From IMG/VR virus record IMGVR_UViG_3300027859_000072, positions 1 through 26,217 of that record: a DNA stretch of 26,217 bases; one strand, 5' to 3'. Positions 3,001 to 25,519 of this stretch are shown here, piece by piece. Position numbers and translations under genes: made by a program. Numbering within the stretch: the stretch's first letter is position 1; each line of letters begins with the position of its first letter. Below the pieces are notes generated by a model. It saw nothing but the letters and a program-made list of their open reading frames with translations, was not told the DNA's origin and made no database searches. Origin of the DNA: a virus.

Positions 3001-3229
3001 CAGTATTATTAAGAAAAACATCTTTTAGTGCAGCATTATTATATGCAGTTGTACCTTTTGTTAGTCCTTCTTTTGATGCAGTTGCAAAACCTTCTATCTC
3101 ACCTTCTGATACTAAATCTAAAAATGTAGCAAACTGCCTACTATGTAAAGTATCAGGTGTTCTTGTAGGTTGTGGTGGCTGTGGTGGCGATGGATTACCG
3201 CCTGCACCCTGTATATATTTTTTTGTCAT
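1..3229 (-). CDS. J: Tail tip / host-specificity protein, lambda gpJ-like (3' end outside window)
   Basis: This open frame runs without a stop from an ATG at 3229-3227 to the window edge, so about 1,076 codons are visible and the C-terminus is missing. Lambda gpJ proteins form the central tip fibre that binds the host receptor and starts DNA ejection. The N-terminal part is gpJ-like: a glycine/proline-rich start, then a segment with FLDLVSEGEIEGF, and a middle region with a conserved CNCPSMVLLDLLTN stretch typical of the tail hub-like portion. Further on are fibronectin-III-like beta segments (around WQPITGVTQYQVNYR and LRWDLSTDVDVTHGG). The start overlaps the stop of the upstream gpI-like gene by four bases (ATGA), indicating translational coupling. 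It is the last gene of the lambda-ordered tail operon, as J is in lambda. Receptor and host cannot be read from it. Identity is strong from order and motifs. Confidence 0.93.
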   Translation of the reverse strand, partial: MTKKYIQGAGGNPSPPQPPQPTRTPDTLHSRQFATFLDLVSEGEIEGFATASKEGLTKGTTAYNNAALKDVFLNNTAVLKSTASSSSPNTTDFNFQNVGFTPRFGTANQTHIPGIESSESTTAVGVVVTKASPVTRTITNTSVDAIKVSITLPQLQRATDAGDLLGSTVQFKISVQYNSGGFTDVITDTITGRTADAYQKDYRVDITGAFPIDIRITRITADSTSSSLVDAFQWSSFSEIIDDKQTYANSAYLSLRIDSQQFSSIPSRKYRLRGVKVRIPGAGANSSGTPTVDNATGRIVYPDGYIFNGVMGAATYCNCPSMVLLDLLTNTRFGLGSHITDASLDLFSFVTASKYANTLVDDGLGGQEARMSANVLLQSADEAFDLINDLSGVMRCMPIWSAGSMTITQDKPTDASYLFNLSNVLEDGFSYSGSDLKQRHSVVSVSYFNMDTQEIDFEVVEDSTAVSKIGVNLKQVKAFACTSRGQAARLGRAILFAEQNESEIISFSTSIDSGIIVRPGAVIEINDPVRAGVRRGGRVNAATTTTITVDDTANTDLPTTNSPTISVIMPDGTVETKNITGISGAVVTVDSAFSTTPNVNTIWLIQDTTVVAQKFRVIAIEEQDEVNYTISALSYVPEKYAFIENGTALPTRTVSILNQPVDPPNNVIANEKIVVINNQAVAKLIISWQPITGVTQYQVNYRFNNGNYTSQTVSRPDYEIFNTEKGVYEIQVFAYNAALEISATSSDLTFNAVGKTAVPANVSNLTAEPISEKLIRLRWDLSTDVDVTHGGRVYVRHSTKTDGSGTFSNAVDLIEALAGNTTEATVPRLEGEYLLRFADDSGILSASSTSIILDLPDTQGSLLAQTRREDTDSPQFQGTKTNVAYDATTTSLNLVGGGNFDDITDFDLVSSLDDFGGIVPLGTYDFATTLDLGGVFSVDLQRHFLTEGFLPSNLLDARGLIDDYTDFDGTEATAVNAELLVRTTQTDPSGSPTYTAFQTFANGTYKARGLQFRAKLTSSDPAQDIKVTQLGYTATFQRRTEQSATAISSGAGAKAITFDKAFFTGTASLNGANTSL

Positions 3230-3822
3230 GCCCTTACCTGTTCAGTATCAATACCTGCACTTATAACAACACTACCTGTAAACACTTCTCCATAACATAT
3301 AGGGTGGCTACTACCTGCCCTTGAACTTTGTTGTATACCACTAAAACCGAATGATATTCTAGGGTCTTGTTCATTACTAAATTCTTTTGGTTTTGGTACA
3401 GGAAATAATAAACCACTAACACCAGATAAAGCCAAACCAACACCTAAAAAACCAACAGCCTTAGATACAAGTATTGGTGTACCTCCAAAAGTACCAATAG
3501 CTGCTGTACCAAAAGGGTTAACAATAGCTAAACCTATTAATGCTGCACCTAATAATATTTTGCCTGTATTACCACCTGCACCAGATATTACAGGTACAAA
3601 TGATATTTCTTGTCTACCAGTAGGTTCATGTATCTGTGTCTCATCAATCTCATATTTATTTATTAATACTTTATAGTATCTTTTTGCCATGTAGCCTTCT
3701 GTTTCTGGGAAGTTATTAATTAAAAAACTAACAGCCTGTGCAACAGAATTTACCTTTACATCAAATTGTTTATGACCTACAAAGTCTGCAAGATCACCAT
3801 ATAGTTTTACCTTAGATAGCAT
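3226..3822 (-). CDS. I: Tail assembly protein, lambda gpI-like
   Basis: This 198-residue protein matches the lambda gpI family in size, position (between K and J) and architecture. The N-terminal half (residues about 1-80) has a ThiS/beta-grasp-like pattern beginning VKLYGDLADFVG and ending in ISFVPVISGAGGNTGK. After it come glycine/alanine-rich hydrophobic stretches (about 85-105 and 117-140) that could be membrane-interacting. In lambda, gpI is needed for tail-tip assembly but is not clearly present in the finished particle. Its start lies 11 bases inside the end of the K-like gene and its stop shares ATGA with J, so the three are translationally coupled. Family assignment is from recalled family features and synteny. 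Confidence 0.85.
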   Translation of the reverse strand: MLSKVKLYGDLADFVGHKQFDVKVNSVAQAVSFLINNFPETEGYMAKRYYKVLINKYEIDETQIHEPTGRQEISFVPVISGAGGNTGKILLGAALIGLAIVNPFGTAAIGTFGGTPILVSKAVGFLGVGLALSGVSGLLFPVPKPKEFSNEQDPRISFGFSGIQQSSRAGSSHPICYGEVFTGSVVISAGIDTEQVRA

Positions 3823-5496: not shown

Positions 5497-5843
5497 GGTT
5501 CAAACACCTCCCTAAATGTAGCTGTAATTGTAGCCCTGTTAGGTACGTTTATCTGTTTCTGCCAAGTATCACATACAAATTTAGATGATGCACTTTCACC
5601 AGGTGGTGTGTAATCAAAACTAGCCCTGTCATCTGCCCTATCATCTAAGAATGTTTCTATGGTATCGCTATCTGTTTCTGTAATATTATTCCATGCAAGA
5701 TTATATTCTTTTGGGTTTTGGTGTTCACTTAGTCCTAGTTGTACTCTATGTTCATAACCATCTGCAAATTTTATAATTCTTGTTTTTGGTGTAGAATTTT
5801 TACGTAAACCATAACTAGCTTCTATAGAAGGAAAAGTTGCCAT
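5493..5843 (-). CDS. M: Minor tail protein, lambda gpM-like
   Basis: A 116-residue protein, close to the 109 residues of lambda gpM and in the same place between the tape measure and L. It shows the family pattern of an early FPSIEASYGLRK segment, a central RIIKFADGYEHRVQLG strand pair, a hydrophobic NLAWNNIT and a C-terminal ATFREVFEP. gpM helps build the tail-tip complex on which the tube polymerises. Its start codon shares one base with the tape-measure stop (TAATG), and its stop shares ATGA with L, so it is embedded in a coupled series. Confidence 0.85.
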   Translation of the reverse strand: MATFPSIEASYGLRKNSTPKTRIIKFADGYEHRVQLGLSEHQNPKEYNLAWNNITETDSDTIETFLDDRADDRASFDYTPPGESASSKFVCDTWQKQINVPNRATITATFREVFEP

Positions 5844-7579
5844 TATGCTAATAACCCTCCTGGTCTTTTTTGTTTTACTAACTCTGATTGTATAGCAACT
5901 GCTATAACCCTTCCTAGTTCTCTACCACCCTGTTCACTTCCTTCTACAGAACTACCAGATGCATCAACACTAACATTAATATTACCAAAACCACCGCCAG
6001 TAGATTGTACCCCTAACTTACCATTACTACCCCTACGTAAAGGTAAAATTGCTTCTGCACCTGCTTCACCCATAAGACCCATGCCATTAGCCATAGGAAA
6101 TAATGTAGGTTTTTTGACGATACCACCATAAGCATATTTTTCTACCTTTCCATCTACAAATGCATTACCATTTGCGTTACCAAATAAACCATCTAAAAAG
6201 TTGGTAAAAGGTTTTGTTATTGTCTGTTGTATTGCAATACGTGCCATATCTGCAATCATTGAATTTGCTAAATTTCTGAAACTTAGCTTTCCTGTAGTAA
6301 CAAAATTAACAAGTGCATCTTCCATTCCTTTTATTCCTTTTATAACTACATCTGCCATGCTTTCCTTTAAACCTTTAATACCATCACCAAAAGTTTTTAA
6401 TTTATCTCGCATTGTCTGACCAAATGATTTATCAATAGAATCACCTGCACCATCAGCACTATCTTTTATATCTTGAAAATAACTAGCAGGGGCGTTTGTA
6501 CTGCCACTAAATAATTCTTGTATTTTATTGAAACTTTCAGTAAACCTATCAGAAAAACCTTTTGTAAAATCTTCTCCTAATAATGAAGTTAAATTACTTT
6601 TCTGCTGCGTTTTAAATCTATTACCTAAATCTTTTGCAATATTGCCAGCACCACCTAATAATTTCTGTACAAACGGTGGTATTTTTATACTGTCAAAAAA
6701 GCCCTGTACACGTTTTGCTGCTGTTCCTAAAACTCTAATTACTTCATCTACTAATTTTACAGTTGCAAATATTCCAATAGATATACCTCTAATACCTATT
6801 TCAATAGCCTTAAAAAATCCACTAAAATCATTTTCTGCACTAAACAATTCAGTAAATACACCAACAATAGTATTTAATGATGGTAGTAATGCATCTGTAA
6901 GTTGTTTTCTGAATCCATCAAACTGTATAGCTAAAACTGCTATCTGATCATTAAAAAACTCTGCGTTTTGTGCAAATTCATCTGATACTGCATAATTAAA
7001 TTCTTCTAATGATGCTGCACCACCATTAAGTAGGTTTATTAAATTAGCCCCTGACCTACCAAATATTTCCATAGATATAGCTGCTTTTGTTGCACCATTT
7101 TCCATAGTTGCAAACCTATCTGCAACTTCTCCTAATACCTGTTCACTTGTTTTAAATGTGCCATCTGTACCTCTTACAGATATTCCTAATGAATCAAAAC
7201 TATCTTTATAAGTAGCAACACCCTGGTCTGCTTCCCTCATAGATTGTGCTAATCTTTTTAATCCTTTATCTATAGTTTCCTGACTAACACCTGCTAATTT
7301 ACCAGCGTTTACATATGCCTGTAATGTATTAGCTGCAATACCAGTTTGATCTGCCATCTTGCCAAAACTATCCGCACTATCTATTGCACCTTTTACAAGA
7401 CCAACAAAAGCACCACCAGATATTAATAAACCAAAAGCAGCAAAGGTTTTATTTAAACCACCCATTGCTAACCTTAAATTTTTAACCCTTCCTGATACAC
7501 CCTGCATAGAGTTACCAAGACGTTTTATAGAACCTGCCCCTACAGTTTTTGCTGCTACTACTAAATCAAACTTTGCCAT
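5843..7579 (-). CDS. H: Tail tape measure protein, lambda gpH-like
   Basis: The 578-residue protein lies directly after the frameshifted G/T pair, the universal place for the tape measure. The N-terminal 120 residues carry helical segments and a hydrophobic, possibly membrane-spanning stretch (about 44-66, AAFGLLISGGAFVGLVKGAI). Then come predicted helices with DQTGIAANTLQAY and SMEIFGRSGANLINLL, typical of lambda-like tape measures. The C-terminal third has GLMGEAGAEAILPL, a conserved tape-measure tail motif. If it is mostly helical at about 0.15 nm per residue, the tail would be roughly 85-90 nm, shorter than lambda's. It starts one base after the stop of the T extension (TAA-T-ATG). Confidence 0.92.
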   Translation of the reverse strand: MAKFDLVVAAKTVGAGSIKRLGNSMQGVSGRVKNLRLAMGGLNKTFAAFGLLISGGAFVGLVKGAIDSADSFGKMADQTGIAANTLQAYVNAGKLAGVSQETIDKGLKRLAQSMREADQGVATYKDSFDSLGISVRGTDGTFKTSEQVLGEVADRFATMENGATKAAISMEIFGRSGANLINLLNGGAASLEEFNYAVSDEFAQNAEFFNDQIAVLAIQFDGFRKQLTDALLPSLNTIVGVFTELFSAENDFSGFFKAIEIGIRGISIGIFATVKLVDEVIRVLGTAAKRVQGFFDSIKIPPFVQKLLGGAGNIAKDLGNRFKTQQKSNLTSLLGEDFTKGFSDRFTESFNKIQELFSGSTNAPASYFQDIKDSADGAGDSIDKSFGQTMRDKLKTFGDGIKGLKESMADVVIKGIKGMEDALVNFVTTGKLSFRNLANSMIADMARIAIQQTITKPFTNFLDGLFGNANGNAFVDGKVEKYAYGGIVKKPTLFPMANGMGLMGEAGAEAILPLRRGSNGKLGVQSTGGGFGNINVSVDASGSSVEGSEQGGRELGRVIAVAIQSELVKQKRPGGLLA

Positions 7580-23596: not shown

Positions 23597-23712
23597 AAAA
23601 ATTAGTCCTAGATATGACTATAAAAGGTCTATACATATCCGTTAAGGATTTACACACTCATTCCGTTAAGGTATTTTATTATGGCACTAAACAGCTATCA
23701 AGTAACAGTTAA
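23593..23712 (+). CDS. Possible small protein starting at AUA (39 aa)
   Basis: AAGGAGGT at 23579-23586 is followed, at the same six-base spacing as the preceding gene, by ATA AAA AAA TTA GTC CTA GAT. The frame stays open for 39 codons (starting IKKLVLDMTIKGLYISVKDL) and stops at 23710-23712, 32 bases inside the next gene. The sequence reads like a natural N-terminus with Met replaced by Ile. It may use AUA as start, be a gene broken by a start mutation, or start later at ATG 23614. It could also be chance. Confidence 0.3.
   Translation: MKKLVLDMTIKGLYISVKDLHTHSVKVFYYGTKQLSSNS
23638..23671 (+). repeat. Direct repeat TCCGTTAAGG upstream of the 211-aa gene
   Basis: TCCGTTAAGG occurs at 23638-23647 and 23662-23671, 24 bases apart, ending nine bases before the ATG at 23681. 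Each copy contains the inverted pair CC...GG around GTTAA. The spacing of slightly over two helical turns and the position in front of a start codon suggest a binding site or translational control element. Confidence 0.4.
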
Positions 23713-24316
23713 TGGTACTGCTGGCTTACTTTGTTCAAACGTTCAAAACTCTGACCCATTAGGTACAGGTGCAAAACAAAAAGCATTTTTTTCAAGTAAA
23801 AAGAAGAAGAATGATGAAGATCATTTATGTCTTAGAGCATTAGATTGGGTCTTCTCTGGTTATTGGAAACAAGAAGGAAAAGTAAAAGTAAACGAAACTA
23901 AAAACTCTATTGAGTTTGATGGATTTTCTGACCCATATATGCCTGGTGCTAACTTCTTACGTTGCCTAAGAAATGCTGCAACAAAATGGAAACTAGGTAA
24001 AGATGTTTTACGTTCTGTTGTTGTTACTAATGACCCTATAATTGAATATCAAGGTTCAAAAGATGCTTTAGAAATGTACACAAAAGATCAAAGTTATTTT
24101 TCTAATACAGCATTTACATCTAGAGGTGTTTGGGTTCAGAGGTTATTATTTCCAGATTGGAAATGTACTTTTGAACTAATGGTTGATGATGAGATATTAA
24201 GTGTATCTCAACTAAATAGAATCATTACAATGGCAGGTAAAGCAGAAGGTTTAGGTACATGGAGACCTCGATTTGGTAGATTTTCTTCATCTGAATTAGT
24301 GGAGGTAGCAGAATAA
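23681..24316 (+). CDS. Conserved phage protein with C-terminal GLGxWRPRFGRF motif (211 aa)
   Basis: The protein starts MALNSYQVTVNGTAGLLCSN. Residues about 85-110 (GFSDPYMPGANFLRCLRNAA) and the C-terminus (IITMAGKAEGLGTWRPRFGRF) match, from memory, a family scattered through phage genomes, with an invariant glycine-rich end and a 'P..pg..l...lr.Aa' helix. No activity is established that I know. The Gly-rich loop after an alternating alpha/beta layout recalls RAMP-like RNA-binding folds, but I cannot support that beyond resemblance. It overlaps the next gene by one base (TAATG) and likely works with it. Confidence 0.65.
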   Translation: MALNSYQVTVNGTAGLLCSNVQNSDPLGTGAKQKAFFSSKKKKNDEDHLCLRALDWVFSGYWKQEGKVKVNETKNSIEFDGFSDPYMPGANFLRCLRNAATKWKLGKDVLRSVVVTNDPIIEYQGSKDALEMYTKDQSYFSNTAFTSRGVWVQRLLFPDWKCTFELMVDDEILSVSQLNRIITMAGKAEGLGTWRPRFGRFSSSELVEVAE

Positions 24317-24804
24317 TGTCAAACCCAAGAATTGACGGCATTGATTGGAGATCACTTGAAAAAGGTGATCTTATACCAGAAGAACACATTCTAGATTATT
24401 GGAATACTTGTTATCCAAAAAAGGAATGGGATAAGTTTAGTATGGTTACTGTTAAAGCTAACATTGAAAAACTCCGTGAAGGCATTAACAGACCACTTGT
24501 TTTAAAAGAAGTAAAAGGTTCTTTAGTTGTACTTACTGATAAAGAGGCTGTTGATTATTCAGCAGCCCAAGCAAATGCAGGTATCAAAAAACATCATCGG
24601 CATACTCGTAGGTTATTTACACACATAGACCAAACTAATTTAGACCAAGCAAAAAAGCGTGATTTAGAAACTAAACAGATACATCATGCGTTTATAGCTT
24701 CTGCTGCTGATGGTGCTAGAAAAGAATCTTTGCAATTGCAGAGAAAAGGAGAAAGACTTCCTAAGTCTTTAATTGAAAAGTCAGAGTTTAAGAAATCTTC
24801 TTAG
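24316..24804 (+). CDS. Conserved phage protein, partner of the preceding gene (162 aa)
   Basis: GGAGGT at 24301-24306 precedes this ATG by nine bases. The protein has an N-terminal GIDWRSLEKGDLIPEEHILDYW segment, a middle LRXG-type strand region (LREGINRPLVLKEVKGSLVVL), then a highly basic helical part with a histidine cluster (KKHHRHTRRLFTHI) and Lys/Arg-rich C-terminus. The basic half suggests nucleic-acid contact. It is the last rightward gene before the long noncoding stretch. I recognise no named family. Confidence 0.6.
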   Translation: MSNPRIDGIDWRSLEKGDLIPEEHILDYWNTCYPKKEWDKFSMVTVKANIEKLREGINRPLVLKEVKGSLVVLTDKEAVDYSAAQANAGIKKHHRHTRRLFTHIDQTNLDQAKKRDLETKQIHHAFIASAADGARKESLQLQRKGERLPKSLIEKSEFKKSS

Positions 24805-24934
24805 CGACTCCATTCATATCTTTTTATCGCACCTTCTGTCTTCTCATCGCCCAGCTACTTGCGTCAACGTGTCGTCACTCGCCACCTTTCATCTCGAAAC
24901 ATCTCAATTTCTTTCGCCTTAACGTCACTCCTCA

Positions 24935-24963
24935 CAATCGTTGTCAGTTTACGATTAAAACTG
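24935..24963. ncRNA. Pseudoknot-like element, copy 1
   Basis: Two interleaved inverted repeats are present: AATCGT (24936-24941) with ACGATT (24951-24956), and CAGTTT (24945-24950) with AAACTG (24958-24963). Order A-B-A'-B' is the topology of an H-type pseudoknot on either strand, with six pairs in each stem. A second copy with compensating changes lies at 25079-25108. Confidence 0.45.
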
Positions 24964-25078
24964 TCTTTAACACTTCTATGACTTAATAAGTTTGCGAAGT
25001 GATCTCAACATTTCAGCTTTTTGTCCCGCCCTTTGCATCGTAGTGCTTCGTTTCCCTTTGCCGTACCTCTACTCAAAT

Positions 25079-25108
25079 CAATCGTTGTAAGTATTACGAT
25101 AAACTTAC
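25079..25108. ncRNA. Pseudoknot-like element, copy 2
   Basis: It shares CAATCGTTGT with copy 1. ATCGT (25081-25085) can pair with ACGAT (25096-25100), interleaved with GTAAGT (25087-25092) and ACTTAC (25103-25108). The second stem differs from copy 1, but both halves change together (a C-G pair becomes A-T), so pairing is kept. Confidence 0.45.
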
Positions 25109-25120
25109 ATAATATTTATA

Positions 25121-25230
25121 GTCGGGAAGCCTGATAGTTAGTTGAGTAGTGTTTACTAACTTGAAAGTTATAGAATACCTACCGCCATAGGAAAGACAGG
25201 GCAAGCGTTGGACTTGATCGATCTCCCGAC
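25121..25230 (+). ncRNA. Candidate structured RNA domain closed by GTCGGGA/TCCCGAC
   Basis: Perfect seven-base arms GTCGGGA (25121-25127) and TCCCGAC (25224-25230) close a 110-base segment. Inside are AGTTAGT/ACTAACT (25136-25142 with 25155-25161), CCTA/TAGG (25178-25181 with 25188-25191) and CAAG/CTTG (25202-25205 with 25213-25216), giving a three-armed multiloop. Purines exceed pyrimidines among G and C on the + strand (29 G, 21 C), favouring that strand. It is not a tRNA (no T arm). No known RNA class was recognised. Confidence 0.45.
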
Positions 25231-25236
25231 ATACAA

Positions 25237-25268
25237 AAACCCTCTAGGGGAATCCATCTAAAGGGTTT
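25237..25268. terminator. Stem-loop, possible terminator of convergent transcripts
   Basis: AAACCCT (25237-25243) pairs with AGGGTTT (25262-25268); a further TAG/CTA pairs inside after one mismatch. On the minus strand the stem runs into TTTTTG, a short U-run, so it could stop leftward transcripts from the genes at 25337-25799. There is no U-run on the + strand. Alternatively it is a further arm of the RNA domain beside it. Confidence 0.5.
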
Positions 25269-25272
25269 AAGT

Positions 25273-25299
25273 TGCCTATTGCTTTGCATATCATAGGCA
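25273..25299. other. Stem-loop TGCCTAT/ATAGGCA
   Basis: Perfect seven-base arms at 25273-25279 and 25293-25299 enclose a 13-base loop. It lies five bases after the previous stem-loop and just before the stop of the leftward gene at 25337. It is probably part of the same structured or terminating region. Confidence 0.45.
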
Positions 25300-25336
25300 T
25301 ACCAAAAGTAAATTATAATTACACCTAATGCAAGTG

Positions 25337-25519
25337 CTATCTAGGTAAACTGCTAATCTTTCTACCTGGGAATAGTTGCTGTTCCAAAAATAAAACAGCC
25401 TTGTCATCTAAATCATTAGATGTTTTTTTACATATTTCCTTTAATAAATCTACTATTAACTGCTTTATTGCAGAACTAGATAAAAACGCTAATAGTATAG
25501 GTTTTAAAATTTTTAACAT
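25337..25519 (-). CDS. Small hydrophobic-start protein (60 aa), possibly lysis-associated
   Basis: The 60-residue protein starts MLKILKPILLAFLSSSAIKQ with a hydrophobic or amphipathic helix, then IVDLLKEICKKTSNDLDDKA and a polar end. Similar short proteins occur in phage lysis regions, but I know no proven function. It lies 49 bases after the 76-residue membrane protein and reads towards the stem-loops at 25237-25299. Confidence 0.5.
   Translation of the reverse strand: MLKILKPILLAFLSSSAIKQLIVDLLKEICKKTSNDLDDKAVLFLEQQLFPGRKISSLPR

Follow-up and report, generated by a model that had tools for sequence, protein, structure and literature searches.

A probable VIPR guide-RNA array with a Y-K-Y pentamer scaffold in a putative marine picocyanobacterial phage

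VIPR is a CRISPR-like system carried by phages against rival phages. A 2026 report on phages of E. coli and Pseudomonas presented it as a forerunner of CRISPR (PMC13142463). The system is described there as a RAMP protein with an accessory gene, together with guide RNAs in which 9-16 YNNGG pentamers are followed by a structured tail, which is a pseudoknot in the SUSP1 clade. The same paper states that double-stranded DNA is recognised via the NN pairs with one base skipped, and that rival phages are thereby repressed.

The DNA analysed here (the window) is a viral stretch of 26,217 nucleotides in which a gap at positions 24805-25336 is flanked by the stop of a + strand gene (24804) and the stop of a convergent - strand gene (25337). 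We consider it very probable that this gap is a VIPR guide-RNA (vrRNA) array lying downstream of a phage-encoded vipr gene. The features of the locus are as follows.

23681-24316, + strand: vipr gene, second gene upstream of the gap; 211-aa RAMP/Cas7-like protein, phrog_4652
24316-24804, + strand: candidate accessory gene (vap) for a mostly helical protein of 162 aa; overlaps the vipr stop
24816-24936, + strand: guide 1, NN-YKY pentamers in one phase
24881-24930, + strand: guide 1 core, ten pentamers, NN = GC-CT-AT-GA-AT-AA-CT-GC-AA-CA
24937-24963, + strand: vrRNA 1 tail, H-type pseudoknot, ATCGT TGT CAGTTT ACGAT TA AAACTG
24971-25001, + strand: internal-loop hairpin forming the second part of the vrRNA 1 tail; six outer pairs; z -2.4
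25005-25080, + strand: guide 2, phase-locked pentamers
25025-25074, + strand: guide 2 core, NN = CC-CC-GC-GT-GC-GT-CC-GC-AC-TA
25081-25108, + strand: vrRNA 2 tail, H-type pseudoknot, ATCG TT GTAAGT ATTA CGAT AA ACTTAC
25121-25230, + strand: separate RNA with a four-way junction, closing stem GUCGGGA/UCCCGAC; matched by the model over 25121-25234
25237-25268, + strand: terminator-like hairpin after the four-way-junction RNA; outer stem of 7 bp, lacking a long T run; z -2.0

As in the SUSP1/Felixounavirus VIPR (type II in PMC13142463; ESCO50, L160), a Vipr RAMP is followed by a small gene and by tandem-pentamer guide units with an H-type pseudoknot tail, and the one-base-skip rule is shared. The window system differs in having a Y-K-Y scaffold where theirs is GGY and an extra tail hairpin, and its family has arrays of 2-8 units in what are probably picocyanobacterial phages. 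The SUSP1-like ESCO50 locus itself contained GGYNN guides ending in an H-type pseudoknot, in the same layout as in the window. The VIPR-like locus of Gordonia phage Trine (L161) likewise encodes a Vipr homologue, at 33% identity, and has a pentamer array directly downstream of it. Unlike in the window the scaffold is GGC/NN, and the GGCNN array comprises 12 units (3125-3184). Since the ESCO50 and Trine arrays are GGYNN and GGCNN, the window system keeps the architecture while the scaffold alphabet has changed from GGY to YKY. A literal GGY scaffold was not found in the window system, where Y-K-Y, mostly YTC, takes its place; as PMC13142463 allows "or a related consensus", we regard literal GGY as a subtype marker and not a defining feature. 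With the Cas7 effectors of CRISPR types III and IV (Csm3, Csf2) the locus shares the RAMP fold and a variable guide with a constant handle. It differs from them in that no CRISPR repeats or other cas genes were seen near the array, the period is 5 nt and not 6 nt, and the guide is a degenerate repeat with non-contiguous reading.

The vipr gene, its neighbour and the host

A profile of the 211-aa product matched PDB 36pp chain D, "SUSP1 Vipr protein" (E 2.3e-21), and hhalign of the window Vipr with the Felixounavirus ESCO50 homologue gave 99.5% (E 4e-22). The AF2 model had a pLDDT of 88 and its top Foldseek matches were Csm3/Cas7 RAMPs at probability 1.0, with modest TM-scores of ~0.4-0.5. By profile, alignment and fold the product is thus a Vipr protein, which belongs to an ancestral type of RAMP with an RRM core and a G-loop. 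No Vipr was found in 400 Prochlorococcus-family genomes, a set without a positive control, or in a profile search of genome contigs.

The 162-aa gene had 50 relatives in IMG/VR and, in the relatives inspected, was conserved after vipr and adjoining the array; its product gave no credible match to the ESCO50 gene which follows vipr. PADLOC returned no match for the two genes, and no cas family was found among the ten genes scanned around the array.

Terminase and portal were closest to those of Synechococcus phages S-CBS1/S-CBS3, the gene at 25337-25519 had relatives in Prochlorococcus phages (up to 71% identity) and that at 3226-3822 had relatives in MED4-117/184. From these similarities the host is most likely to be among the marine picocyanobacteria.

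Guide units and tails

The gap had been described in an earlier note as gene-free, with raised G+C and a C-over-G bias which turns round near 25080. It is indeed real and non-coding, and a composition scan bore out both biases: G+C was about 0.42-0.46 across most of 24780-25080, and C exceeded G up to ~25080 (skew -0.32 to -0.46), after which the skew reversed. Both pseudoknots listed in the note were recovered (24937-24963 and 25081-25108), with stem 2 covarying in relatives, and so was its 110-base domain with a seven-pair closing stem (25121-25230), which also covaries. Two further stem-loops had been credited with seven pairs each; both exist, the one at 25237-25268 having seven outer pairs and the one at 24971-25001 having six.

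The pseudoknots of the window recurred downstream of relatives of the 24316-24804 gene as units ~180 nt apart, with fast-changing C-rich stretches between them. The number of units varied, with two in the window and up to 8 per locus in relatives. Further scans, one by pattern and one more by protein, raised the total to 593 units, a redundant count because loci overlap; distinct guides numbered ~300 and came from about a hundred phage records. Autocorrelation of TC in the spacers was 2.0-2.7 at lags of 5-30 that are multiples of five and below 0.9 at other lags, and this five-nt period was absent from the upstream coding sequence. The phase was locked to the first base of the pseudoknot over at least 100 nt. 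Across 304 distinct guides the pentamer read N-N-Y-K-Y, N1 and N2 being near-uniform, while the scaffold positions were 82% Y (S1), 63% T and 24% G (S2, 87% T/G) and 65% C and 32% T (S3, 97% Y). The guides are thus tandem pentamers in which a conserved trinucleotide alternates with a hypervariable NN, as in VIPR. For guide 1 the phase score was 57 (24805-24936) versus 42.6 +/- 2.35 in dinucleotide shuffles, none of 2000 reaching 57; the score of guide 2 was matched or exceeded in 23 of 2000.

In 19 distinct tails sharing one layout, stem 2 of the pseudoknot showed 25 both-sided changes against 7.8 when shuffled (0/500), and pairing fell from 90% to 29-45% when the 3' partners were slid. Covariation therefore establishes a structured 3' tail of the kind described for the SUSP1 clade, a pseudoknot. 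The hairpin at 24971-25001 was found by inspection, with no formal count, to occupy the same position in relatives with compensating changes in its stem.

Some variation in layout was observed among relatives. In the more distant L131, L133 and L136 one guide unit also lies upstream of vipr, as reported for SUSP1. In L034 and L088 the array runs as far as the stop codon of a convergent gene, which by eye reads as a putative integrase, and the last pseudoknot overlaps the 3' end of that gene. Upstream of vipr in L046, positions 1558-1658 matched Rfam sRNA-Xcc1 weakly over the full length (31 bits, E 0.064).

Decoded matches and alternative readings

Conservation was compared in 46 clusters of orthologous guides, picked by total identity and not by NN identity. 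Mismatch at NN was 26% of the unrelated-pair rate versus 33-43% at scaffold positions, and the raw NN mismatch rate was below the scaffold rate in 32 of the 46 clusters (Wilcoxon p 0.045). This relatively stronger conservation of NN among orthologous guides is moderate evidence that the pentamer code may be under selection.

Five guides were scanned as exact NN patterns against IMG/VR. Four gave only chance-like matches, and the fifth, from cluster 5 (conserved in 18 related loci), matched tRNA-Leu genes with matching that ran past the pattern, a result to be read with the abundance of tRNA genes and its arrival with the fifth guide scanned in mind. The complete guide set was next compared with tRNAs from Prochlorococcus MIT 9314 and from parts of a second Prochlorococcus genome. 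With a skip of one base the best scores were 19/20 at tRNA-Leu (antisense, cluster-5 guide), 18/20 with a variant of that guide, and 17/20 at the 3' end of tRNA-Ser with eight consecutive NN pairs, versus at most 16/20 for skips of 0, 2 and 3 against the same tRNAs. Among 400 shuffled guide sets none reached 18 and none had three at 17. L038 has an orthologous guide, displaced by one pentamer, with the same tRNA-Ser match, and the two are counted as one lineage. The one-base skip was thus recovered computationally in two guide lineages of relatives and not in the window's own guides, for which no target was found in the IMG/VR exact scans or in relatives; guide 1 also had none in 400 picocyanobacterial-family genomes. 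Scoring of all guides against the sequences of relatives gave nothing above controls. A 17/20 match to the 3' end of 16S rRNA and two matches of 17-18/20 at L537 were set aside as not clearly above chance.

The tRNA-Leu stretch also occurs in phages. In Prochlorococcus podovirus P-SSP7 (L610) it lies at 5868-5896, with a 19/20 match to the relatives' guide, between the integrase gene (ending at 5768) and the RNA polymerase gene (starting at 6039), 143 bp before the latter; we take this stretch to be an att site matching the host tRNA-Leu gene. It is also present upstream of RNA polymerase in P-SSP2, and in P-SSP3, while many T4-like cyanophages carry related tRNA-Leu genes (18/20 in the two checked). 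As the sequence is common to both, the true target may be the host gene or the phage copy.

If the gap acts as a VIPR array, it would either share a transcript with vipr and the candidate accessory gene or have a promoter of its own, and would yield two vrRNAs of ~10-16 pentamers each, in which two variable bases precede the Y-K-Y scaffold (mostly YTC). Each vrRNA would be capped by its H-type pseudoknot, unit 1 adding the hairpin. Vipr subunits may line the pentamers, hold the scaffold bases away from pairing and offer the NN pairs to double-stranded DNA; recognition would skip one base between NN pairs, and transcription of rival phages could be blocked in this way, presumably also by the window's own two guides. 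We further think it reasonably probable that the locus belongs to a VIPR branch of marine picocyanobacterial phages in which Y-K-Y replaced GGY while the pentamer code, pseudoknot and one-base skip were kept, with long arrays and a tRNA-Leu guide whose site lies just upstream of the RNA polymerase gene in T7-like cyanophages.

The earlier note had instead proposed one large ornate phage RNA of the GOLLD or ROOL kind, arguing that several structured elements fall within 530 nt and that both families are known from phages. Its view of the gap as structured non-coding RNA and not a decayed coding sequence holds; the single RNA and its proposed kind do not. The gap is two tandem guide units, then the separate ~110-nt four-way-junction RNA, then the terminator-like hairpin. 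The search it had suggested for GOLLD and ROOL gave no match to their covariance models, and neither gathering nor lax thresholds produced anything credible in Rfam 15. Its folding-energy check failed too, as the whole region folded no better than shuffles (z -0.89 on the + strand, -0.03 on the - strand), a test which is insensitive here because pseudoknots are unscored and the majority of the gap is unpaired guide sequence. The reading is already contradicted by the variable unit number (2 to 8 per array) and by the independent occurrence of its parts, the 110-nt domain being found alone elsewhere, and we judge it extremely unlikely. BLASTN of the gap against phage records gave no match, and identical repeats with unique spacers of the CRISPR type were absent from the region.

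The C>G bias, the YC motifs and the place between convergent genes would also suit a series of Rho-dependent terminators, with C-rich, G-poor rut-like stretches between convergent operons. Rho, however, requires neither conserved NN bases nor a 5-nt phase that holds exactly over 100 nt in register with a covarying pseudoknot, and the likely hosts are cyanobacteria, which are not known to have Rho, so that this explanation has scarcely any probability. A VIPR-derived array could have taken on another role, such as that of a decoy or sponge for a different RNP, its guides being inactive on DNA; that no targets were found for most guides, including both of the window, would fit. Against this, the NN bases have changed relatively less than the drifting scaffold letters, and two guide lineages could be decoded to real sites with a skip of one base but not with the other skips, which makes repurposing very unlikely. 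Pseudoknot arrays of type III toxin-antitoxin systems and integron attC arrays were set aside because the units are ~180 nt apart, carry a 5-nt code and have Vipr next to them.

On the VIPR array reading, the system would be widespread in ocean cyanophages with a different scaffold alphabet, and the protein-RNA code itself would then be evolvable. The base specificity of Vipr could be mapped by comparing GGY and YKY readers, and cultured cyanophages (P-SSP7, P-SSP2) and their host would offer a testable natural target. VIPR would also be linked to competition among phages of the most abundant photosynthetic organisms.

The separate four-way-junction RNA

The five starting homologues of this RNA gave 20 pairs with 98% of cells paired and 6 both-sided changes versus 1.2. 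With a covariance model 19 members were gathered. They come from cyanophages, among them the isolates MED4-117 and MED4-184, and from genomes of the Synechococcus family, some of which carry multiple copies, up to seven in one. Aligned to the model, 18 distinct rows showed 81 both-sided changes versus 22.9 when shuffled (0/500). The RNA had no match in Rfam 15. Copies of ~95-135 nt include L204:9547-9675, L209:3430-3547, L214:6297-6417, L223:7685-7819, L339:16345-16464 and L340:13799-13918, with others in L602-L609. Of the 19 copies, seven begin 6-23 nt past the stop codon of an ORF in the same orientation, and one more abuts such an ORF. Our guess is that the RNA may be a 3'-end stability or processing element. 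In several copies it is followed by a hairpin with a T run.
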